Positions 1 through 21,600 of a stretch of 24,732 nt of DNA are shown here, one piece after another. Location: positions 1 to 24,732 of IMG/VR virus record IMGVR_UViG_3300044825_003624. One strand, given 5' to 3'. The position numbers and the translations under genes were made by a program. Positions within the stretch are counted from its first letter, which is position 1. Every line of letters begins with the position of its first letter. The DNA is from a virus. The notes beneath the pieces are model-generated. The model was given only the letters and a program-made list of their open reading frames with translations, did no database searches and was not told the DNA's origin.

Positions 1-2
1 AT

Positions 3-773
3 TTATCTCGTTTGATTGTTGATGCGGCAAATGATGGTACGCGGACATACTGGTGGCGATACAATCATCCTCTCGCTGTTGCACAAAAGGGTGTTGAGTA
101 TGGTGTTGGTGGTATTACATCTCCAACGCAAAGGGCAGCAGCCGCTCTTGCAATTGCTGCTCCAGCTATTTCTGCAGCTGGTACCTATAACATTTTAAAT
201 CCCGGCCAACTTTTCCGTCCAACGGGTTACGCCCAAACATATTCCGAACCTGGCAGTGAAGATCGCCGTGAAACTGCACAACCTGCACAAGAGTTGTTCG
301 AACGTTTCTTTATGGGTCGTACAGGTGAACCATTAAAATATGAAACAGCACAAAAAGATATTCCCTCTTTGACCAAAGAACGTTACGCTAATTATCAAAA
401 CTTCTTATACAACGACAAAGGTTTGCTTGGTCTGGGCATTATCAAAGCAACTCCAGAAAACTTACAAGGTTATCCCGAAGCGCGTGTCCTTGGTTTCCCT
501 GTAAATATTCCAATGGCTGCTGGTTTTGCTGCAGGATCTATTGCGGCAAGGGAAGCAACGATTGCAGGCAGAACTAAAACGCCAGCAGGTAAAACAGTTG
601 CCCAGTTCTATCCCGCTAAACAACGCGGTATCCGTGGTGCTATTGGCGGTGCACTTGGTTCTATTGCTGGTGTTGCAGCAGGTAATGTTATTAACGAAGC
701 AATTGCATCTGCAAATCGTCCAAAACTTCCTACTACAAACGAGTATCAAAACTTAAGTACTGATAGAATTTAA
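3..773 (+). CDS. Ala/Gly-rich virion protein, 5' end outside the window (partial)
   Basis: The reading frame is open from the first full codon at position 3, so the gene almost certainly begins before the window; a TTG at 12 is only the first permissible start inside it. About 257 residues are visible. The N-terminal part is hydrophobic and Ala-rich, the middle is soluble and polar, and the C-terminal third has Gly/Ala stretches (MAAGFAAGSIAA and IGGALGSIAGVAAG) that look like glycine-zipper membrane segments. I do not recognise a family. Two similar Ala/Gly-rich genes follow, and the terminase genes lie downstream, which suggests an internal or ejection-type virion protein. That role is inference. 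Confidence 0.7.
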   Translation, partial: LSRLIVDAANDGTRTYWWRYNHPLAVAQKGVEYGVGGITSPTQRAAAALAIAAPAISAAGTYNILNPGQLFRPTGYAQTYSEPGSEDRRETAQPAQELFERFFMGRTGEPLKYETAQKDIPSLTKERYANYQNFLYNDKGLLGLGIIKATPENLQGYPEARVLGFPVNIPMAAGFAAGSIAAREATIAGRTKTPAGKTVAQFYPAKQRGIRGAIGGALGSIAGVAAGNVINEAIASANRPKLPTTNEYQNLSTDRI

Positions 774-797
774 ACAAATAAAACAACTGTATTTATA

Positions 798-1682
798 ATG
801 ACCCCTGAAGAATTAATGCGAGCGGGTCTGGATCCACGGGCGTATTATCCGGATTACGATATTGCTGCTCGGGCCAGGGCTGGGCTTGTTCCTGAAGAAG
901 TCCTGACTCAACGTGGTGCAACGACAATTACACCAAAGGTTTCTGTTCAGCAGCAAGCCAAGCAACGTGCACAGGAACTTGCCAACAAGACTCTGGCTGG
1001 AGCCCAAGATGTGATGGGCAGCCTTGGTGCTCTTCCTTTTGGTCGTCTTGGTTTAGCCGCTGGTGTAATCCCTGGCGTTACGACAGCAGCTGCTGAGCTT
1101 GCAGCAGGTCGTCCTGTGGGCGCTGGTGGTGCTCTTGGTGGTGCTGCCATTGGTGGTGTTACCGCTGCAGGTATTGCCCGTCTTCTGCCCACCACAGGCC
1201 GTTTTGGCATCGTCGGCAAAGCTGCTCGCTTAGGTCTGCCTTTCCTTGGTGCAGGGGCTGGTGCTCAACTTGGTGCTGAAGGTGCTGAATACGGTCGTCA
1301 ACAGCTAACTAATATTCCAACAAAAAACAAAGAAGGTGAATTTGCCTCTCAACTAGCAGCCGAACGTGCTCTCTCTGATCTTCAACTTTCTCAATTCCGT
1401 ACACGTACCGGGATTGAAACCAGTGTTGTTAAAGATTTGAGTAAGTTTGCTTCTGATCAAGCTTATCTGGATCTCCAACGCAACATGCCTCTGGTGAACC
1501 AAATGAAGAATGCCGACCTGGTTCGCCAACAGGCATTACTTGCTTCTCAGGGTAATCAGCTTGCACGCCTCAACATTCTGCAAACCGCTGGTAATCTTGC
1601 AATGGGTGCCCAGGGTCAAACAGGTGAAACTCTGCGCACCATGCTTACGTCCAACCCTTACGCTAACGCTGTTCTGCGATAA
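798..1682 (+). CDS. Gly/Ala-rich putative internal virion protein
   Basis: Encodes 294 residues from an ATG 24 nt after the previous stop, with no clear Shine-Dalgarno sequence. Residues about 70-160 are strongly hydrophobic with repeated small residues (for example GAGGALGGAAIGGVTAAG), a pattern of glycine-zipper membrane-inserting segments. The C-terminal 120 residues are polar, Gln/Leu-rich and probably helical. No enzymatic motif is visible. The architecture resembles phage proteins that sit inside the capsid and are ejected into the cell envelope; that is inference from composition and position. The stop is separated from the next ATG by only 2 nt, so the genes are probably co-translated. 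Confidence 0.75.
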   Translation: MTPEELMRAGLDPRAYYPDYDIAARARAGLVPEEVLTQRGATTITPKVSVQQQAKQRAQELANKTLAGAQDVMGSLGALPFGRLGLAAGVIPGVTTAAAELAAGRPVGAGGALGGAAIGGVTAAGIARLLPTTGRFGIVGKAARLGLPFLGAGAGAQLGAEGAEYGRQQLTNIPTKNKEGEFASQLAAERALSDLQLSQFRTRTGIETSVVKDLSKFASDQAYLDLQRNMPLVNQMKNADLVRQQALLASQGNQLARLNILQTAGNLAMGAQGQTGETLRTMLTSNPYANAVLR

Positions 1683-1684
1683 TT

Positions 1685-2260
1685 ATGGCCTCCTTTAATC
1701 TTGCTGGAAACTTTAATCCCATTGCGTTTGGCAAGGGTAGAGGAGGTTTTGAATTGGCCGGACGTTTTGCAAATGCTTTAAATCCACAACAAAAAACTTC
1801 TGGTTTTAACCCAACTACTCCAGAGGAATGGTTAAAAAAAGCGCGTGACCTTCAAAAACAAGGTTACTCAAAAGAAGAAGTTAATGCGGCAATGCAACCG
1901 TATGCTCCTACTACTGGAAGTCGCACACCGGAAGGTAACTTCATTGAGGGTGTACTTCCTCTGATGCAAGAGCAAATCAAGCAAAACATCTGGGCTAATA
2001 GTCCGGAAGGAATGAAAGCACAACTTGAACTTGCTCGTGAAGACGCCAGAGAAAAAGCAAAGCAAGGCTTGATGTGGAATACATTGTCAAAACTTCCTGA
2101 GCAGATGGCTAATGCATTTAGCCCTTATGGCGGCCCAATGGGTGCGGCAATGGCTTATCAAGGTGTTTCTCAAATTCCTTCTATTTATTCTCAAACTCTT
2201 CAAGCATATCCCCAGGTTCAAATACCTGGTTCCAGCACATCTCAATTCCGTTACTTCTAA
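1685..2260 (+). CDS. Putative virion protein, unknown function
   Basis: Encodes 191 residues, starting 2 nt after the previous gene. The N-terminal part is Gly/Phe/Asn-rich (ANALNPQQKTSGFNPTTPEE). A charged helical middle follows (EEWLKKARDLQKQGYSKEE and later QLELAREDAREKAKQG), and the C-terminus is Pro/Gln/Tyr/Ser-rich. No transmembrane segment as strong as those of the neighbours is seen. I recognise no family. Tight packing between hydrophobic virion-type genes suggests a virion-associated role, which is inference only. Confidence 0.7.
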   Translation: MASFNLAGNFNPIAFGKGRGGFELAGRFANALNPQQKTSGFNPTTPEEWLKKARDLQKQGYSKEEVNAAMQPYAPTTGSRTPEGNFIEGVLPLMQEQIKQNIWANSPEGMKAQLELAREDAREKAKQGLMWNTLSKLPEQMANAFSPYGGPMGAAMAYQGVSQIPSIYSQTLQAYPQVQIPGSSTSQFRYF

Positions 2261-2278
2261 TTGATGTAAAATAAATAC

Positions 2279-2830
2279 ATGGCATATTTTGGCGGTAGCA
2301 ATCCAGAAAGTTATTTAAAATCTTCTGGTTCTGGCGCGTTTTTAGGTTCGGGATCTAAACCAATGGCTTTTGGATGGGATGATGCATTATTGGGCGTAGG
2401 CACAGCTTTGAGTGGTGCCTTTGGCATGATGGGCGCCCAAAAACAAGCCAATACTCAAGCTGCTATTGCCAATGCTCAATTAGCTGCTCAAGCTGATGCT
2501 GTTCGCAATGCCCGCGAAATGCAAAAAGGCAGCATGGGCATGGGGATGTTTAATACTCTCTTTGGCTCAACAACAGGAGCTGATATTGCGTTTGGTCAAC
2601 AACTTGCAGCAAAACGTAAAGAATATAGTGAGCTTCTTCCTAAGCAAACAGGTTTAGAGCGTGAAAATATCCGCTGGCAAACAGCGTTTGGTACTTCACC
2701 CGAAGCACGTGCTTTATCCAGGCAAGAACGCATGGGGCGACTACAAGAAACCATTGCTGGATATATGGCACAACCAACAGGTATGTTTGGACCAATTGCA
2801 CGTATTAATATAGAATCACTGGCAGGTTAA
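2279..2830 (+). CDS. Putative internal virion protein with N-terminal hydrophobic segment
   Basis: Encodes 183 residues. Residues about 35-60 form a hydrophobic Gly/Ala segment (DDALLGVGTALSGAFGMMGA). An Ala/Gln-rich helix follows (QKQANTQAAIANAQLAAQAD), then a Met/Gly-rich stretch, then polar sequence with a QTGLERENIRWQTAFG helix. One hydrophobic segment followed by an Ala/Gln coil is reminiscent of small podoviral internal virion proteins such as those at the T7 gp14 position; no sequence identity to gp14 is claimed. No Shine-Dalgarno is seen before the ATG, and the leader is AT-rich (taaaataaatac). The stop is 2 nt before the next ATG. Confidence 0.7.
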   Translation: MAYFGGSNPESYLKSSGSGAFLGSGSKPMAFGWDDALLGVGTALSGAFGMMGAQKQANTQAAIANAQLAAQADAVRNAREMQKGSMGMGMFNTLFGSTTGADIAFGQQLAAKRKEYSELLPKQTGLERENIRWQTAFGTSPEARALSRQERMGRLQETIAGYMAQPTGMFGPIARINIESLAG

Positions 2831-2832
2831 TT

Positions 2833-3729
2833 ATGGGTGGCGGAAGAGGTACAACAGTTCAATATCAGGCACCACCGCCTGATAATAGTTTTTCGCAGTT
2901 TCTTCAATACCAACAAGAAAAAGAGCGTATTGCTGAACAGCGTGCTGCACAAGAACGTGCAGAAGAAAAAGCAAAAGAAGATGCACGTATTGCCGCTGGA
3001 CAAGCTGGTTACGGTGCCTTAAAGTCAGGAGTTGAATCTCAACTTCGCCAGGGTTTACTTGGCTTTGAAGATGCAACATCTCGTCTTCGTGATTATGGAG
3101 CCAAATATAATCTGGCCCCAGTTGAATCGGATATTGCTAAGTTAGGAGATATTTACACCAAAGAACTGCTCCCTGGTCGCCGCCAAACAGGCATTGGCGC
3201 AGCTTACGAAGAAATCCTTGGTCGTCAAGCAACCGAGGAAGAGAAATCAAAAGCAATGGAGCGGTTCAACCAAGGATATTACTCTTCGGTTCAAGACCTC
3301 CGAGATTCTCTTTACAAAGGTACCGAATATCAAGATAAATTCAATCAAAGTTATCTTGACAATTATTACGACACTAAATTTGGCAAACAAGAAGTTGACG
3401 AAAAAGGTAAAAAAACAGGCCGTCGCACTTTTACTTTTGCCTCCAATCTTCTTCCTTCTTTTAAAGATACCGCTGGCCTTGCGCAAAAAACAGGCGTCAA
3501 CCTTCCGAGTTTTGGTGAATCATTTACAGGAACAGCTGCGGAGTTGGAAGAACAAATTCAAAACGTACGTGATAGTAGACAGTTTCTTTATAGTGCCGGT
3601 TTGACTAATCTTCAAGGAGATATTGACAGGGAAACACAAAAGTTTAAAAATGAAGGAATGAAGGAAGTGCAAAAAATCCAATCCTTTGGAAATGTTGCAT
3701 CCAGCCTTGTTGCTGGATTCTGGGGTTGA
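2833..3729 (+). CDS. Putative virion structural protein with DUF4214-like motif
   Basis: Encodes 298 residues. The N-terminus is Gly/Pro-rich, then residues about 30-60 form a highly charged Ala/Glu/Lys coiled coil (EERAEEKAKEDARIAAGQ-like). Around residues 118-165 the sequence AAYEEILGRQATEEE, then a spacer and SLYKGTEYQDKF, has the pattern of DUF4214-type segments (Y-x-x-ILGR-x-A ... G-x-E-Y/F). The C-terminus returns to a helical, weakly hydrophobic segment (VASSLVAGFWG). DUF4214-like segments occur in large extracellular and virion proteins; their exact role is unknown. I take this as a virion protein from context. Confidence 0.75.
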   Translation: MGGGRGTTVQYQAPPPDNSFSQFLQYQQEKERIAEQRAAQERAEEKAKEDARIAAGQAGYGALKSGVESQLRQGLLGFEDATSRLRDYGAKYNLAPVESDIAKLGDIYTKELLPGRRQTGIGAAYEEILGRQATEEEKSKAMERFNQGYYSSVQDLRDSLYKGTEYQDKFNQSYLDNYYDTKFGKQEVDEKGKKTGRRTFTFASNLLPSFKDTAGLAQKTGVNLPSFGESFTGTAAELEEQIQNVRDSRQFLYSAGLTNLQGDIDRETQKFKNEGMKEVQKIQSFGNVASSLVAGFWG

Positions 3730-3754
3730 TGTAAATCTCCCTAGATTTCTTTGT

Positions 3755-3760
3755 TATAAT
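3755..3760 (+). promoter_or_regulatory. Possible -10 element (tataat) before the tiny-gene pair
   Basis: A perfect tataat lies in the gap between a virion gene stop (3729) and the first tandem tiny gene (3789). No convincing -35 box is seen at 16-18 nt spacing; the nearest candidate, ttgatg at 3726, is 23 nt away. This is one of few gaps in the region large enough for a promoter. Low confidence. Confidence 0.3.
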
Positions 3761-3788
3761 TACTTTAGTTCTGAATAAAAAAACTAAA

Positions 3789-3941
3789 ATGAACCAGGAC
3801 ACTTATTTTAATATTCGGAGTTTTGAAGAACTCCTCAATCGCCTGGAAGCCTCTAAGGGTCGCCAACAGCGTCAGAAATCGGTTGAAGGCCGCCGCGATA
3901 TCTTCGCACAAGGTCTTGCCGGTATGATGGGCAATTTCTGA
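3789..3941 (+). CDS. Tandem tiny gene, copy 1 (50 aa)
   Basis: An ATG-started frame of 50 residues beginning MNQDTYFNIRSFEELLNRLE and ending GLAGMMGNF. A near copy follows immediately. The two copies differ by 13 of 150 aligned bases; eight changed codons are synonymous and only two change an amino acid (I to V, F to W). That bias is good evidence that both are translated and constrained. The product is a short charged helix (EELLNRLE, then KGRQQRQK) plus a Gly/Met tail. I recognise no family. The position just upstream of the probable small terminase suggests a packaging or virion role, which is only inference. Confidence 0.7.
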   Translation: MNQDTYFNIRSFEELLNRLEASKGRQQRQKSVEGRRDIFAQGLAGMMGNF

Positions 3942-4114
3942 TTTAACCAGTAATTAAAATGGAAAACCAGGACACTTATTTTAATATTCGGAGTTTTGAA
4001 GAACTCTTGAATCGTCTGGAAGCCTCTAAAGGTCGTCAACAGCGCCAGAAATCGGTTGAAGGCCGTCGTGACGTTTGGGCACAAGGTCTTGCCGGTATGA
4101 TGGGCAATTTCTGA
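3792..4114 (+). repeat. Direct tandem repeat, two 150-nt units at 173-nt period
   Basis: Units 3792-3941 and 3965-4114 match at 137 of 150 bases by manual alignment and contain the coding parts of the two tiny genes. The 23-nt spacer holds the stop-to-start leader. Substitutions are concentrated at third codon positions. Confidence 0.85.
3959..4114 (+). CDS. Tandem tiny gene, copy 2 (51 aa)
   Basis: Encodes 51 residues, MENQDTYFNIRSFEELLNRL onward, ending in the same GLAGMMGNF tail as copy 1. It differs from copy 1 by one added Glu codon after the start and by VW in place of IF near residue 40. The leaders of both copies end in ttaaaatg or ctaaaatg with no Shine-Dalgarno. Function unknown. 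The conserved protein and drifting third positions suggest both copies are kept by selection, or that duplication is recent but followed by purifying selection. Confidence 0.7.
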   Translation: MENQDTYFNIRSFEELLNRLEASKGRQQRQKSVEGRRDVWAQGLAGMMGNF

Positions 4115-4134
4115 TTCTGAAAATTATCTAAGCC

Positions 4135-4383
4135 ATGACTAGCAGTGTACCTGCCGGACAAACCGATGTTGATGATTGGTTTGATCTAGATAAATACCGC
4201 CAAGCTGCTGGCGTGGCTTACGATTTTTCTAAGAAAAAGATGGAGACTGCTGGTGAGCAAGAACGAGAAACAATTGGTAGAGGCGCGTCGGAACAACGCA
4301 CTTCTGCAGAACAACAGCAGCAGTTTAAACAAAAAGACGAAGAGCGTGACTACGGTCAGGCCCAACGAGCTTATCGATATTGA
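4135..4383 (+). CDS. Small charged Gln/Glu-rich protein of the packaging region
   Basis: Encodes 82 residues, MTSSVPAGQTDVDDWFDLDK onward. The second half is a polar helix rich in Gln, Glu and Arg (EQRTSAEQQQQFKQKDEERD), typical of a coiled coil, with no hydrophobic segment. The 3' end overlaps the next gene by about 38 nt if that gene uses its GTG at 4346. The overlap and order suggest translational coupling with the probable small terminase. No family recognised. Confidence 0.6.
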   Translation: MTSSVPAGQTDVDDWFDLDKYRQAAGVAYDFSKKKMETAGEQERETIGRGASEQRTSAEQQQQFKQKDEERDYGQAQRAYRY

Positions 4384-4870
4384 GCTGTTTGATTCTTGGG
4401 TAGATAATCTCGATTCTGCTTCCCAAGAAGCATTCTGCTTGTTTGCCGCAGATAACTATTCAGTTATTGAAATTTATCTGTACGCTCGCTTCCTTGGTTA
4501 TAAAGGAGGTATTGTTGGCTGTGATCTTTGGGTAAAACATCATTACTCAAAACCTGATCACCGGAAAAAACTCCTGTATGAAATTGATGAAATGCAGGAG
4601 GACATCCGAAAGCTACGTGAAGACGTAGAAAGCGGCGTCGTAAAACGCGATGCAGGTGTTGCTCGTATTGCGTCAATGCAAAAAGAACTCCGTGGGACCA
4701 TTGCCCAGGTTGAACAATTTACAACCATGAAAGATCGCAAAGGTCTTTTAATGGCAGGAGCGGATAGGGCAATTCGTGAACTCATGTTTATTTTTAAAGA
4801 TGACCCAATTGAAATGCCCTTGGAAGAAGCATCCATGAGCGTATGGGCTCGTATGCAACTTGAAGAATAA
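4346..4870 (+). CDS. Probable terminase small subunit
   Basis: Encodes 174 residues from GTG at 4346, which I prefer because purine-rich aagacgaagag lies just before it; an in-frame GTG at 4253 would give 205 residues but overlap the previous gene by 131 nt. Residues about 1-70 are helical with a possible DNA-binding core (SVIEIYLYARFLGYKGG). Next comes a long charged coiled coil (LLYEIDEMQEDIRKLREDVE), then an acidic C-terminus (DDPIEMPLEEA) that could contact the large subunit. Small terminases recognise phage DNA and stimulate the large subunit. The assignment rests on helix plus coiled-coil architecture and on position two small genes before TerL, not on a diagnostic motif. Confidence 0.55.
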   Translation: MTTVRPNELIDIELFDSWVDNLDSASQEAFCLFAADNYSVIEIYLYARFLGYKGGIVGCDLWVKHHYSKPDHRKKLLYEIDEMQEDIRKLREDVESGVVKRDAGVARIASMQKELRGTIAQVEQFTTMKDRKGLLMAGADRAIRELMFIFKDDPIEMPLEEASMSVWARMQLEE

Positions 4871-4897
4871 TTAAATTAAAATATTTAAAAAGCATTC

Positions 4898-5050
4898 ATG
4901 CAAATGGGCGCCAGTACTAGTAGTGCGCAAAACATTCAGGCTCGGATGAATACTCTTCGCAGCGTAAATCAAGGTAGTGGTTCGGTTGGTCCACGCCGTC
5001 AAGGTACACCGCAGCAAACTACTGCTGTTCGCATGGTAGGTGACCGCTGA
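4898..5050 (+). CDS. Small hypothetical protein (50 aa)
   Basis: An ATG frame of 50 residues, MQMGASTSSAQNIQARMNTL onward, ending AVRMVGDR. It is Ser/Gln/Arg-rich with no hydrophobic segment. Its TGA shares an A with the ATG of the next tiny gene (tgatg), so the two are probably translationally coupled. It fills the gap between the probable small terminase and the large terminase. No family recognised; support is the open frame, the coupling and the lack of any other explanation for the gap. Confidence 0.55.
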   Translation: MQMGASTSSAQNIQARMNTLRSVNQGSGSVGPRRQGTPQQTTAVRMVGDR

Positions 5051-11057: not shown

Positions 11058-11102
11058 TATCTTTCACCCGATAAAAACACTGACACTGGAGGATAAACCA
11101 AA

Positions 11103-11111
11103 GTGTTCATT
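11103..11111 (+). CDS. Major capsid protein, exon 1 (three codons)
   Basis: GTG TTC ATT follows a ggagg ribosome site at 11088-11092 with 10 nt spacing. An in-frame taa at 11094-11096 means GTG 11103 is the only start possible here. Bases 11103-11111 can pair over nine positions with 11738-11746 (the intron guide), ending in the T-G wobble that marks a group I 5' splice site. Joined to exon 2 the protein would start MFIGAELYRPHP and be about 380 residues long. Unspliced RNA would stop after five codons (tag at 11118). Confidence 0.7.
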
Positions 11112-11959
11112 GATAGCTAGTTCAGATCCTGGTAGGTATTGCCCTTCAAGATTTGGTAAATAGCTCCGTGGTTACAGTTAAACTTTTCGGCGATCTTTCT
11201 ATACGACAGACCTGCCTCTTTTAAAGCTTTGATTTGAGCCACGTCATCCGAAGAAAATTTTCTTAAAGTTTTTTTCGGTTTCCCTTTGCTGGCAAAACCA
11301 TTGTTCTTGTAACAACCCGTTTTCCAGGCCCTTGTTAAATTTTCTTGTTTGGTAACGATTTCAAGATTATCAACTTGATTATTTCTCTTGTTGTTATCTT
11401 TGTGATCTACTTGCAGGGAAAAGTTATGTGTTCCATGTGAACGCAGATCTAAACCCAAAAATGCAACTGCCATCAAGACGTGAAGATGAAAACGCTTTCT
11501 CTTTCCGTTAACAAGAACTGAAATACGGTCATAAACACTGGTTGAACGAATGGGAATCTCTTGAAAATATTCTTGATTATCGGGATCAAGTTGTTTTTCA
11601 AAAGCTTTACCTTCTTCCGTTAAGTAAAGATTACCAAATCCTGGAACTAATTTTGGGTCCATGTTGTTTATAAACAGCTTTCCAAAAGATAGCATGCCTC
11701 AGCTGAACGCTCAACGTTGTCACCTCACCGAGCAATCGATGAGTGCAAACCGGATGAATTCAGGGAAGCCCTAACGTATAGTCGAGGGTAATCCTGAGCC
11801 AAGCCAATCAAGCGTGATTGGAAGGTGCAGAGACTACTGGGTGTAACACGATCTTGTTACGTAATACCAGATTCAGCGTCCGGCATCCCACAGGGATGAA
11901 GAGATAGTCCACCCCTCCAAGAAACTGGAGACCAGGAGAACGACTTTCCAAAGATTTTG
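11112..11959 (+). ncRNA. Group I intron (subgroup IA-like) in the major capsid gene
   Basis: The core is readable by eye. Guide 11738-11746 pairs exon 1 (P1). P3 is ccgga 11750-11754 with tccgg 11879-11883. P4 is tcagg 11760-11764 with cctga 11793-11797, inside aatcctgagccaagcc. P5 pairs ccct and aggg. P6a is a perfect ccaatca/tgattgg hairpin (11804-11821). P7 is agact 11831-11835 with agtcc 11906-11910 in the conserved gtgcagagact and aagagatagtcc boxes. P8 is catccc/gggatg (11884-11898). P9 is ctcca/tggag (11915-11930). About 40 nt between P7 and P3 fit the extra P7.1/P7.2 helices of subgroup IA. The 3' splice site is best placed after G 11959, by a weak P10 (ggt with atc) and frame; G 11953 is an alternative. 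The HNH gene occupies the P1 loop. Confidence 0.88.
11117..11695 (-). CDS. HNH homing endonuclease inside the capsid-gene intron, antisense
   Basis: Encodes 192 residues on the strand opposite to its host intron. The N-terminal part (residues 20-80) has the strand and helix pattern seen in intron HNH proteins (VYDRISVLVNGKRKRFHLHV). The HNH motif is VDHKDNNKRNNQVDNLEIVT, with H98 and N110 as the likely catalytic and metal residues. The C-terminus has a helix-turn-helix (LSYRKIAEKFNCNHGAIYQI, residues 163-182) for target recognition. Such enzymes cut intronless alleles to copy the intron. The start may be ATG 11695 or the in-frame ATG at 11662; ribosome-site evidence is weak for both. The gene ends six bases inside the predicted 5' splice site. 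Confidence 0.85.
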   Translation of the reverse strand: MLSFGKLFINNMDPKLVPGFGNLYLTEEGKAFEKQLDPDNQEYFQEIPIRSTSVYDRISVLVNGKRKRFHLHVLMAVAFLGLDLRSHGTHNFSLQVDHKDNNKRNNQVDNLEIVTKQENLTRAWKTGCYKNNGFASKGKPKKTLRKFSSDDVAQIKALKEAGLSYRKIAEKFNCNHGAIYQILKGNTYQDLN

Positions 11960-13093
11960 GGTGCGGAGCTTTACCGCCCCCACCCTGCTTACATTGCAGA
12001 AATGGCGGTAGAGCCTGTGGTCGTCCACGACTTTACTCGTCAACCCGGTCAAACTGTTCAGTTAGATCGCTACAAGTTCTGGGGTACCCCCGGCACGAAG
12101 GACAGCCGCGAGCGTGTGGCTGACCAGACGATCGGTACTGCCAACAGCCGCAACATCACCAAAGAGAAGGTGCTTGTTGTGCTGAAGGAGTACACCGGTC
12201 CTGCCGACCCGGGTGATCCGACTCAACCGAGCACCTTCAAGATTGCTCGTGAAACTCTGATTACCGCCCAGCGTCTTCTGCTGGACACCGGTAACCTGAA
12301 CATGTTCCACCAGTCGATCGGTAGCCTGACGCTGCTTGACGACTACCGCCGTTGGCGTGACCGCGTGTTCATTGATGAACTCGCCAAAGCCGAAGCCAAC
12401 GGTCAAGCCTCCTCTACTCAGGGTGGTTACTACTTCCCTGGTGCTAAGGCTAAAGATTCTACCGGTCGTATCACCTACACTTCGACCGAATACACCGCTG
12501 ATCTGCAGCAATTCTCGGTTCGTACCGACCTGCTGACCGTGGTGAAGGATCTGCGTAAGCGCAACGTGCCGACCTTCTCCGATGGTCTGTATCGCTGCAT
12601 TTGCGATCCTACCTTCATGATGCACCTGCGTCGTGATCCTGACTTCCGTGAGATTGCTCGTTACAGCGGCAATCCTGGTCAAGGCATGTACATGGGCAAC
12701 CCCATGATGCCTAACAACGCCAGCTTCTACATGGGTCCCCAGGCTGGTCAGGGTTACTTCCTGGCTGGTGAGCCTGTCATGCCGACTGGTGTTCAGTTCG
12801 AAGGTGTGAAGTTCTTCGAATCGACCAACTTCCCCACCAAGTCCATCACCACTTCCTTTGCTGGTACCGGCGGTACCTATGCTGCTCAGGAAGTTGCCCA
12901 GGGCTTCTTCTTTGGTCCTCAGGCCATTGGCGTGGGCATCGGTGGTCCGAACGCCCAGGTGCTCATCAACAACAACGACGACTTCAGCCGCTTCATCATT
13001 CTGATTTGGCAGCTGTACGCTGGTTTCGAAATCCTGAACAAGGACTTCGTGACCACCGCTTTCAGCTACGTGTCTGATGACGGTACCGTCTGA
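11960..13093 (+). CDS. Major capsid protein (N4 gp56-like), exon 2
   Basis: Encodes 377 residues beginning GAELYRPHPAYIAEMAVEPV after splicing to exon 1. The upstream in-frame TTG at 11957 would only act as a start in unspliced RNA and lacks a ribosome site. Family cues are the DFTRQPGQTVQLDRYKFWG N-terminal strand, the long helix-containing middle (ERVADQTIGTANSRNITKEK, then LLDDYRRWRDRVFIDELAKA), DGLYRCICDPTFMMHLRRDP, and a C-terminal NDDFSRFIILIWQLYAGFEI. It forms the icosahedral shell. G/C-rich codon use marks it as highly translated. It contains NASFYMGPQAGQ, shared with the small protein at 7275. Confidence 0.88.
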   Translation, partial: GAELYRPHPAYIAEMAVEPVVVHDFTRQPGQTVQLDRYKFWGTPGTKDSRERVADQTIGTANSRNITKEKVLVVLKEYTGPADPGDPTQPSTFKIARETLITAQRLLLDTGNLNMFHQSIGSLTLLDDYRRWRDRVFIDELAKAEANGQASSTQGGYYFPGAKAKDSTGRITYTSTEYTADLQQFSVRTDLLTVVKDLRKRNVPTFSDGLYRCICDPTFMMHLRRDPDFREIARYSGNPGQGMYMGNPMMPNNASFYMGPQAGQGYFLAGEPVMPTGVQFEGVKFFESTNFPTKSITTSFAGTGGTYAAQEVAQGFFFGPQAIGVGIGGPNAQVLINNNDDFSRFIILIWQLYAGFEILNKDFVTTAFSYVSDDGTV

Positions 13094-17923: not shown

Positions 17924-18475
17924 TTATTTTGGTGCAAAAGCTTTTTCAAGCGGCCACCCTTTATTTAATCTTTTTTGCATTGATTGAGGAGATATTCCAA
18001 TTTTTTTAGCCCAATCGGCAATACATAAAGTTTCTCCGTTGAACGTATAAAGTCGTGTTGCGCGTTTGCCGCCACGATTTCTTGTTTGCTCTTTGTGCGT
18101 CGCCCACCTGCAATTGTCTTTACAATAATTTTTATTGTTATCAATTCTTTCAAGTTCCATCTTGGGATCCGGTTTTTCTCCCATGTCAGCGAAGAAGTTT
18201 TCAAATTTTTGCCATGGGGGATCGTAGGTGATGCCTCGGCCACCGTATCGCTCATAAGACGGATGTTTTTTATTGTTACAACGATTTTTCATTGCACACC
18301 ATGAGCCATATTCAGGTGTTTTATTTTTATGCCCGCCATGCTTAAAAGAGCCACATTCTTTAGAGCAAAAAGTGTAACCCTTTTCTTTCAATCTTTTTCT
18401 GTGCCAGGCTGCAGTATTGCCTTCTCTTGTATAGGTTTTCCCGCATTGAGCGCATTGAAAAGTTGTTTGTGCCAT
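17924..18475 (-). CDS. Free-standing HNH endonuclease, antisense
   Basis: Encodes 183 residues on the - strand. The N-terminus has a zinc-finger-like set of cysteines (CAQC at 8-11, C37 and C41). The middle has a conserved aromatic and Gly region (GSWCAMKNRCNNKKHPSYER, then YGGRGITYDPPW). The HNH core is ELERIDNNKNYCKDNCRWAT (residues 108-127). The C-terminus is a helix-turn-helix (IADWAKKIGISPQSMQKRLN). This is a phage HNH family that often occurs as free-standing homing genes. I find no group I core boxes in its flanks, so it seems to be an intergenic insertion, between the genes ending at 17920 and starting at 18525. Confidence 0.85.
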   Translation of the reverse strand: MAQTTFQCAQCGKTYTREGNTAAWHRKRLKEKGYTFCSKECGSFKHGGHKNKTPEYGSWCAMKNRCNNKKHPSYERYGGRGITYDPPWQKFENFFADMGEKPDPKMELERIDNNKNYCKDNCRWATHKEQTRNRGGKRATRLYTFNGETLCIADWAKKIGISPQSMQKRLNKGWPLEKAFAPK

Positions 18476-20904: not shown

Positions 20905-21105
20905 TCAAACCATTTGTTCTAGTTGTCTCTTAACTGCTTTAACATTCCATCGGTAGCTGTCCCTTGATCGAGTCTCTGGGAATGCCGCATAATGGGCACC
21001 GAGCTTCAGGGTCCCATCATCTCGATACTTAAAGAGAGTCTTCTTGTCAATTCCAAGAAGCTCTTCAAGTTTCTGGGCCGACACCCAAGTAGACTGCGCT
21101 GCCAT
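20905..21105 (-). CDS. Excisionase-like small DNA-binding protein
   Basis: Encodes 66 residues from the ATG at 21105 (a GTG at 21144 would add 13 residues). The sequence STWVSAQKLEELLGIDKKTL is a winged helix-turn-helix start. FKYRDDGTLKLGAHYAAFPE forms the wing region, and YRWNVKAVKRQLEQMV the last helix. This is the layout of small Xis/AlpA-type proteins, which bend DNA for recombination or regulate transcription. No integrase is in the window. It lies antisense in an otherwise + strand phage module, next to an HNH gene, and ends on a good terminator, so it may be an acquired gene with its own promoter. Confidence 0.7.
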   Translation of the reverse strand: MAAQSTWVSAQKLEELLGIDKKTLFKYRDDGTLKLGAHYAAFPETRSRDSYRWNVKAVKRQLEQMV

Positions 21106-21156
21106 GGAAGAAAATTGGCTTACAGAAATAGAGTAACAACCCACCCGACCCAGTCA

Positions 21157-21237: not shown

Positions 21238-21600
21238 ATGTTCAACAGCGAGCAAGAACCCCTCGCCCTGCTAATTGAACTAACACCTAAACTTGCCAAG
21301 AAACGTTATCGACAATCAATATACGAAGCCTGGGATTACAGATGCGCTTACTGCGAAGCAGAGGCAACATCGCTTGACCATGTGGTACCAAGATTTAGGT
21401 CTGGATCTAGCAACCGCAATAATCTTGTTCCTGCATGCAGAAAATGCAATGCATCTAAAGCAAGCAATAAAGTAAAAGAATGGTTTGAGCAACAAGATTT
21501 TTTTACGCAGGCTAAGATGGATAGAATTAACTCCTGGGTAAAGCAAGAACCTATTGATGTTTTTGTTTATCAAGTCGATTCGTTAAGCTTGGCAAGTTGA
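21238..21600 (+). CDS. HNH endonuclease, McrA-like zinc type
   Basis: Encodes 120 residues. The HNH core is complete: C36-x-x-C39, LDHVVPRF with D47 and H48, then SNRNNLVPACRKCNASKAS with N62, and C67-x-x-C70 for zinc. A short helical N-terminus and a C-terminal tail flank it. It differs from the other two HNH genes here, which lack this paired CxxC pattern around the HNH core. It may be a mobile free-standing nuclease or a packaging-linked nuclease; its place far from the terminase genes and beside an excisionase-like gene favours the mobile option. The next gene starts 1 nt after its stop. Confidence 0.85.
   Translation: MFNSEQEPLALLIELTPKLAKKRYRQSIYEAWDYRCAYCEAEATSLDHVVPRFRSGSSNRNNLVPACRKCNASKASNKVKEWFEQQDFFTQAKMDRINSWVKQEPIDVFVYQVDSLSLAS

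Follow-up and report, generated by a model that had tools for sequence, protein, structure and literature searches.

A mobile group I intron very probably interrupts the major capsid gene of a cyanophage related to Synechococcus phage S-EIV1, at positions 11115-11938 of IMG/VR virus record IMGVR_UViG_3300044825_003624. The whole stretch analysed (24,732 nucleotides) is a virus record without a larger parent genome and is hereafter designated as the window. The intron is of IA type by its P7.1/P7.2 helices and lies directly after codon 4, a reading to which we assign a probability of about 0.95 and in which splicing and homing are inferred from sequence comparison. An earlier note on this DNA had proposed an IA-type intron in the major capsid gene of such a phage, with its core between a ribosome site and the capsid reading frame, and both points are borne out: the GGAGG ribosome-binding sequence of the capsid gene lies at 11088-11092 (+), with the same or a similar sequence 5' of the start in intronless loci, and is followed by GTG at 11103. 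A 192-codon antisense HNH gene, of which the earlier note made no mention, fills most of the intron.

The ends of the intron were located by comparison with relatives. An IMG/VR search with the capsid protein returned at least 600 stretches (599 confirmed), from which the best 80 loci were kept for site comparison. The intron's 3' end was present in 12 of these loci and absent from 68, and the latter run uninterrupted from GTG TTC ATT GAT into AAC GAC TTT CCA and through AAG ATT TTG to GGT GCG GAG (typically MFIDNDFPKILGAE), with the residues continuing as GTGTTCATTGAT-AACGACTTTCC. Their start codon is the window's GTG (ATG in one locus), and the frame passes DNDFPKIL or a variant of it to reach GAEL. 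The window reads GTG TTC ATT GAT, then 824 foreign bases ending in ...ACCAGGAG, then AAC GAC TTT CCA. Since 68 of 80 loci are uninterrupted across the site, exon 1 (MFID, last base U) is taken as 11103-11114, the intron (final base G) as 11115-11938 and exon 2 as 11939-13093, all on the plus strand. Splicing would thus join MFID to NDFPKILGAEL and yield a capsid protein of 388 residues. The junction MFI-GAEL of the earlier note (11112 to ~11960) misplaced the 5' splice site by 3 nt and the 3' splice site by 21 nt. That note had set against its proposal any relatives whose capsid gene begins at GAEL behind its own ribosome site; none were seen among the 68 intronless loci. Another candidate, a 5' end at 11111 combined with the 3' end CAG|GAGAAC (MFIENDF), would keep a U.G in the nine-position pairing proposed in the earlier note, but was rejected as it places E where intronless loci have D and as the P1 and P10 pairings fit better at 11114/11939.

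The site letters GAT|AACG were found in all 74 intron-bearing rows. Among 68 intronless rows (67 of the best 80 loci plus S-EIV1), GAT occurred in 63 and AACG in 47, the others having ACCG or AATG. Intron ends were located with patterns containing these same letters. No copy was lost to the patterns, because the core is preceded by only 0-662 bases, fewer than an endonuclease-bearing intron needs, in the 20 copies that lack a 5' end, and the contig of a further copy (L093) stops at the intron 3' end.

The interrupted gene was listed as an open reading frame at 11957-13093 (+), which matches the major head protein family phrog_1357 (E 3.2e-16). Among 50,697 phage records searched at E 1e-5, the sole match to the capsid protein was S-EIV1, with 86.2% identity over the whole query (378 residues); its capsid gene is intronless at the site in question, where it reads GAT ACC GAC. 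Capsid residues 1-10 are conserved as far as marine relatives (MWIDNDFPKLLGAEL). The S-EIV1 GenBank record (L082, KJ410740.1, 3971-5122) does not annotate the beginning of the capsid frame (GTG, 383 aa open) and lists in its place a hypothetical protein on the minus strand and a 3' fragment.

The only above-threshold Rfam match in the window is to RF00028, at 11690-11931 (+) and over the full model (88.6 bits against a gathering threshold of 50, E 1e-21). This match and the pair counts confirm the group I core from P3 to P9, with P7.1/P7.2-type helices, described in the earlier note. The catalytic core spans 11750-11930 (+), as outlined by the Rfam match, the pair counts and RNAalifold, and comprises P3 (11750-11756/11877-11883), P4 (11759-11764/11793-11798), P5 (11768-11772/11785-11789), P7 (11832-11836/11905-11909), P7.1 (11837-11840/11867-11870), P7.2 (11843-11847/11856-11860), P8 (11884-11889/11893-11898) and P9 (11915-11919/11926-11930). 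It is preceded by a P2 hairpin at 11724-11743 (+; 3' strand 11736-11743) closed by a GCAA loop. Fold statistics were computed on the 50 distinct core sequences obtained from 104 cores of 119 copies. Across these, 98.5% of cells pair, against 41.2% for the best slid version of the fold, and both-side changes occur at 10 pairs, against a mean of 4.2 in 500 shuffles and a maximum of 2 in slid versions. Covariation exceeded both controls in four of five measures, the exception being further pair types (21 observed, 22.7 in shuffles). The both-side changes fall in P2 (four of its eight pairs), P7.2 (three) and P6, P6a and P9 (one each); a C-A mismatch in P2 (11728/11739) is unpaired in 35 of the 50 cores. 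The outer pair of P5 (alignment A1 columns 69/90, window 11768/11789) is G-U in 44, A-C in 5 and A-U in 1 of the 50, mostly a swap of two wobble-like pairs.

An internal guide, CGUUGUCA at 11715-11722 (+), lies just 5' of P2. Its 3' half pairs with the exon 1 end UGAU to form P1, and its 5' half pairs with exon 2 AACG to form P10. The P1 5' strand (UGAU|AGC, 11111-11117, +) pairs with 11716-11722, i.e. four exon 1 bases plus three further pairs inside the intron, with a U.G at the splice site. None of the seven P1 pairs or four P10 pairs is lost in any of the 98 complete introns, including that of the window, and RNAalifold recovered P10 unprompted. As these pairs are invariant, they document conservation rather than covariation. 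Guide-type 8-mers occurred at a mean of 0.12 in shuffled introns, 11% of which held at least one. The group I hallmarks found are thus a P3-P9 core with its P7/P3 pseudoknot, an exon-end U paired to a guide G, a terminal intron G and P10. The P7.1 and P7.2 helices, which read as nested here, sit between the P7 5' strand and the P3 3' strand (A1 columns 140-173), a position that marks subgroup IA (PMC3428280), and the intron is therefore assigned to that subgroup. In the intron of L131, the P7.1/P7.2 region is replaced by other sequence that, by eye, can form the same kind of helices.

The antisense gene (11117-11695, minus strand, 192 aa) occupies the P1 loop, its stop codon lying 2 nt away from the 5' boundary of the intron. 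Its product matches phrog_59 HNH (E 2e-27) and HNH_3 above cut-off, with a C-terminal HTH_38 below it (24.4 of 27 bits). Residues 54-185 match 1u3e_M, an "HNH homing endonuclease" entry (E 6.1e-6) that we take to be I-HmuI of phage SPO1, and the gene is thus predicted to encode an I-HmuI-like nuclease. Matches were found in 222 named-phage records, none at 60% identity or more. The frame is open in all 86 copies that carry it (181-205 codons), each stopping 2 nt from the intron 5' end, and appears constrained, with a median dN/dS of 0.11 (1,492 pairs with dS > 0.1 among 56 distinct sequences) and 79, 48 and 157 variable sites at codon positions 1, 2 and 3 over 186 codons. Four of the five other frames had dN/dS values from 1.2 to 2.2; the fifth (sense, shift 1) gave 0.18, which we attribute to the third positions it shares with the HNH frame. 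The HNH ATG has a GAGG just one base upstream, and the first invariant residue in the 56 sequences is the methionine at codon 12. A sense-strand endonuclease was considered and rejected, the longest sense open stretch reaching only 48-105 codons across the 86 introns.

A CTAG palindrome at 11117-11120 provides two stops, UAG in the capsid frame of unspliced RNA (11118-11120) and, on the other strand, the antisense gene's own stop (11119-11117). It is present in 85 of the 86 endonuclease-bearing copies and replaced by CTAA in one, so that both stops are kept in all 86. Among the 12 complete copies lacking the endonuclease, seven keep CTAG and five read CTGG, with the capsid-frame stop then at codon 11.

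Searching IMG/VR with the core pattern identified 118 copies of the intron, of which 117 adjoin exon 2 of the capsid gene and one (L093, where the contig ends) adjoins exon 1. Complete copies numbered 97, or 98 with the window intron; 86 of the 98 carry the HNH gene, and 12 do not (256-277 nt, with a short sequence in the same loop). In two of the latter, L105 and L192, the P1 loop holds a short hairpin, TAGGCAATTTGCCT, that resembles the two borders of the endonuclease insertion, as though this were the point where the gene was gained or lost. Presence of the intron was then mapped on a FastTree capsid tree of 163 rows (94 with the intron, 69 without) that omits the first 90 nt beside the site and six rows with a second insertion (L088, L091, L132, L140, L156 and L171), which had distorted a first tree. 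Twenty-seven changes were counted, at least 15 of them forced by well-supported branches, versus about 51 with shuffled labels, and presence therefore appears clustered yet far from a single gain. The first FastTree tree, with the six rows included, gave 26 changes, 17 of them forced. L168 (with endonuclease) and L192 (without) have identical capsid sequences. Within 33 nt on each side of the site, divergence was 0.106 and 0.113 in intron-bearing pairs versus 0.169 and 0.172 in intronless pairs, the two sets (2,609 and 2,128 pairs) being matched on distal divergence (0.145 and 0.143). This lowered flank divergence fits the prediction of co-conversion during homing and, together with a patchy presence in close relatives, a constant site and a conserved endonuclease frame, is a sign of a homing intron. 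One row kept in the tree, L166, has two stop codons in the frame of capsid exon 2 despite a one-piece, full-length protein alignment.

From these elements, a course of events may be proposed. The capsid transcript would fold and exogenous guanosine would attack after U11114; the freed exon 1 would then attack after G11938, restoring MFIDNDFPKIL. An antisense transcript would supply the HNH protein, which would cut or nick intronless capsid genes, and repair would copy the intron in. A ribosome on unspliced RNA would halt at codon 6 (UAG) and, by our proposal, would thereby stay out of the ribozyme.

Several observations weigh against this interpretation. Splicing and homing are both read from DNA. 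No pair in P3, P4, P5, P7, P7.1, P8 or P10 is changed on both sides, and support for these helices therefore comes from the Rfam match and kept pairing. The real intron holds two guide-type 8-mers, the second at 11389 inside the HNH gene. A scan for sigma-70-like promoters, which covers that promoter type only, found none upstream of the antisense gene. It detected a single minus-strand site, inside the gene, fewer than the 2.0 sites that chance would provide. Finally, the guide's need for particular exon letters could account for part of the lowered flank diversity. The negative outcome of the promoter scan would also suit an HNH gene that is a passenger, dead or acting elsewhere, as would the gene's absence from 12 of the 98 complete copies, an absence that, for the 10 such rows of the first tree, takes seven label changes to explain. 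With 86 of 86 frames open, a dN/dS of 0.11, a patchy distribution and lowered flank divergence, we regard such a passenger as improbable.

Other alternatives concern how, or whether, the insertion is removed. Splicing may need a phage or host helper protein, or translation may have to clear the RNA, which would refine rather than oppose the group I reading. Precedents exist in Bastillevirinae phages, where four of nine tested genes were spliced only in infected cells according to the part of PMC11878797 covered, and five of the six introns in a related contig (L290, see below) match the Rfam model at only 21 to 55 bits. The window intron has a full core scoring 88.6 bits, and its covarying parts include outer helices, as in a self-contained ribozyme; dependence on help thus seems unlikely here, if less so than a passenger endonuclease. 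The mechanical list of open reading frames places the capsid start at 11957, and the insertion might accordingly stay in place with translation beginning at an internal codon such as TTG 11957. Such a start would remove the first ten residues with their conservation among marine relatives, disregards the upstream start of the 68 intronless loci, and leaves the fold and P1/P10 unexplained, so that we give it very little credence. Less credible still is the junction of the earlier note, with exon 1 ending at ATT 11111 and exon 2 starting from GGTGCGGAG at 11960. The nine-position guide on which it drew does exist, as exon 1 pairs with 11738-11746 at nine of nine positions in 76 of 98 copies, but the pairing is incomplete in the other 22 and six of the nine intron positions belong to the 3' strand of the covarying P2. 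This junction would also drop the eight residues DNDFPKIL, and intronless relatives set the ends elsewhere. A group I intron at 11115-11938 remains the reading that we retain.

The capsid genes of relatives proved to hold further introns. Seven intron-bearing rows have stop codons in the capsid frame, six of them due to second insertions. The two second insertions examined, in L156 and L088, contain LAGLIDADG_2 genes and score below the RF00028 gathering threshold (37.6 and 35.1 bits); searches with these two genes identified 21 and 14 loci, all with capsid exons, and additional intron-bearing loci came from searches with capsid C-termini. Sixteen insertion sites were resolved, each with an exon-final U, an intron-final G and an open joined frame, located in window numbering after or within residues 4, 6, 18, 22, 31, 48, 89, 107, 133, 138, 140, 144, 212, 235, 286 and 294. 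This set leaves out the junctions of L313 near residue 36, of L400 and the second of L405, and the break of L456 at residue 283. For every site, some contig gives one or more RF00028 matches with E no higher than 1e-3.

The largest number was found in L290 (positions 1-4400 of an 82.6-kb contig), with five complete introns at residues 18, 31, 89, 138 and 144 and a sixth at residue 4 that is truncated where the contig ends. One of its exons measures 18 nt (DYRRWR), all complete introns end U|...G|, the joined frame shows no interruption between residue 5 and its stop codon, and all six introns match RF00028 (E 7.8e-18 to 0.0032, 77 to 21 bits). L393 (2415-5294) has four introns, all before codon 50, and the exons that precede the final one measure 12, 42, 38 and 52 nt. 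L408 (1510-5294) also has four, and its five exons join into one open frame of 380 residues. The L408 intron at residue 286 bears an antisense LAGLIDADG_3 gene (4057-4911, minus strand), so that the antisense arrangement recurs in the same capsid gene with another endonuclease class, while the one at residue 107 (or 108, two junctions being near-equal) bears a sense LAGLIDADG_2 gene. Automatic intron counts per gene are lower bounds, as the short exons of L290 and L393 were missed and introns cut by contig ends were counted as none. At least one intron or cut intron was present in 12, 30 and 14 loci of three 80-locus capsid-similarity sets. These figures are not prevalences, since the first two sets share contigs, the queries of the second and third came from intron-bearing contigs, and all three are nearest-neighbour sets.

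With a confidence a little above even, we propose that group I introns gather in the S-EIV1-like capsid gene (16 sites, up to six per gene, exons down to 12 and 18 nt, sense and antisense endonucleases of two classes), that the most abundant virion protein may require as many as six RNA excisions in each message, and that co-infecting relatives may attack each other in this gene.

Comparison with known systems, made on the portions of the cited papers covered, indicates which of these features have precedents. The earlier note had called an intron in a capsid gene notable, a judgement weakened by published capsid introns in mycobacteriophage LittleE, where splicing was proven by RT-PCR and protein sequence, and in Tuc2009, cited in the same paper (PMC3706429). 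The LittleE intron resembles that of the window in its gene, length (~820 nt), preceding U, final G, bottom-strand endonuclease and intronless sister phages. It differs in its phage group and its endonuclease, LAGLIDADG-like in the text (HNH in the figure legend) versus HNH in the window, whose intron lies at codon 4 and has many copies, some without endonuclease. The window intron thus occupies an unusual, not an unprecedented, gene, an antisense endonuclease in a capsid intron having been seen before, and what remains notable is the presence of up to six introns in relatives. Introns of nuclear rDNA can likewise carry an antisense endonuclease gene (PMC9548176). In cyanophages, introns have been described in psbA and DNA polymerase genes (PMC3428280, PMC8557907, PMC7156551). 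That of the Pf-WMP3 DNA polymerase gene (I-PfoP3I), from group IA2, shares with the window a cyanophage host genome, an HNH protein (a nickase there), P7.1/P7.2 and a 4-bp P10, and differs in its gene, in an endonuclease located in P6a and in being without P2 (PMC3428280). The psbA introns of cyanophage S-CBWM1 have a core 71% identical to that of the window over query positions 34-147 and differ in interrupting a photosystem gene; one contains a 633-bp endonuclease gene (PMC8557907).

Among named phages, the nearest cores are those of Klebsiella and Vibrio phages (31 records, the best 77% identical over 66% of a 271-nt query), the Vibrio matches lying partly in terminase-like genes and the other matched regions being unannotated. 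The SPO1 DNA polymerase intron is comparable in its HNH endonuclease, I-HmuI (the 1u3e_M match), and differs in its host gene. Its endonuclease gene is sense-oriented. Several group I introns per gene have been described in Bastillevirinae DNA polymerase and terminase genes (up to three) and in a Twort gene with three introns, by a title cited in the same paper (PMC11878797); three is the maximum there, versus four to six in the capsid genes related to that of the window. In Jug phages, introns are numerous within a genome, and terL is divided into 2-3 fragments (PMC12363816). In the literature partly covered on S-EIV1 with introns and on cyanophage group I introns with capsid, no paper was found on introns in S-EIV1-like capsid genes.

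Among the other genes of the window are those for a terminase and a structural protein of the virion. HNH endonuclease genes occur twice more, at 17924-18475 (minus strand) and 21238-21600 (plus strand), with no intron signature near them at the Rfam threshold. A small helix-turn-helix frame at 20905-21144 (minus strand) is weakly excisionase-like, below cut-off.

The intron load of the capsid gene across relatives is the part that specialists would not expect. Few phage genes are expressed as heavily or conserved as strongly as those for capsids, and each intron in one therefore puts a burden on virion yield. With none to six introns per gene, with and without endonucleases, in many environmental phages, these loci offer a natural series for studying intron spread, its cost and its role in phage competition. 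The antisense endonuclease inside P1 illustrates a possible way to uncouple endonuclease expression from a very strongly expressed gene. As gene finders will overlook the genuine start codon or split the reading frame, annotation of capsid genes with introns easily goes wrong in viral metagenomes. If the S-EIV1-like capsid gene is indeed a gathering place for introns, their endonucleases would make it a site of conflict between co-infecting relatives, comparable to the use of the PhiPA3 intron endonuclease gp210 as a weapon against a PhiKZ gene, reported in the part of PMC11620839 covered.

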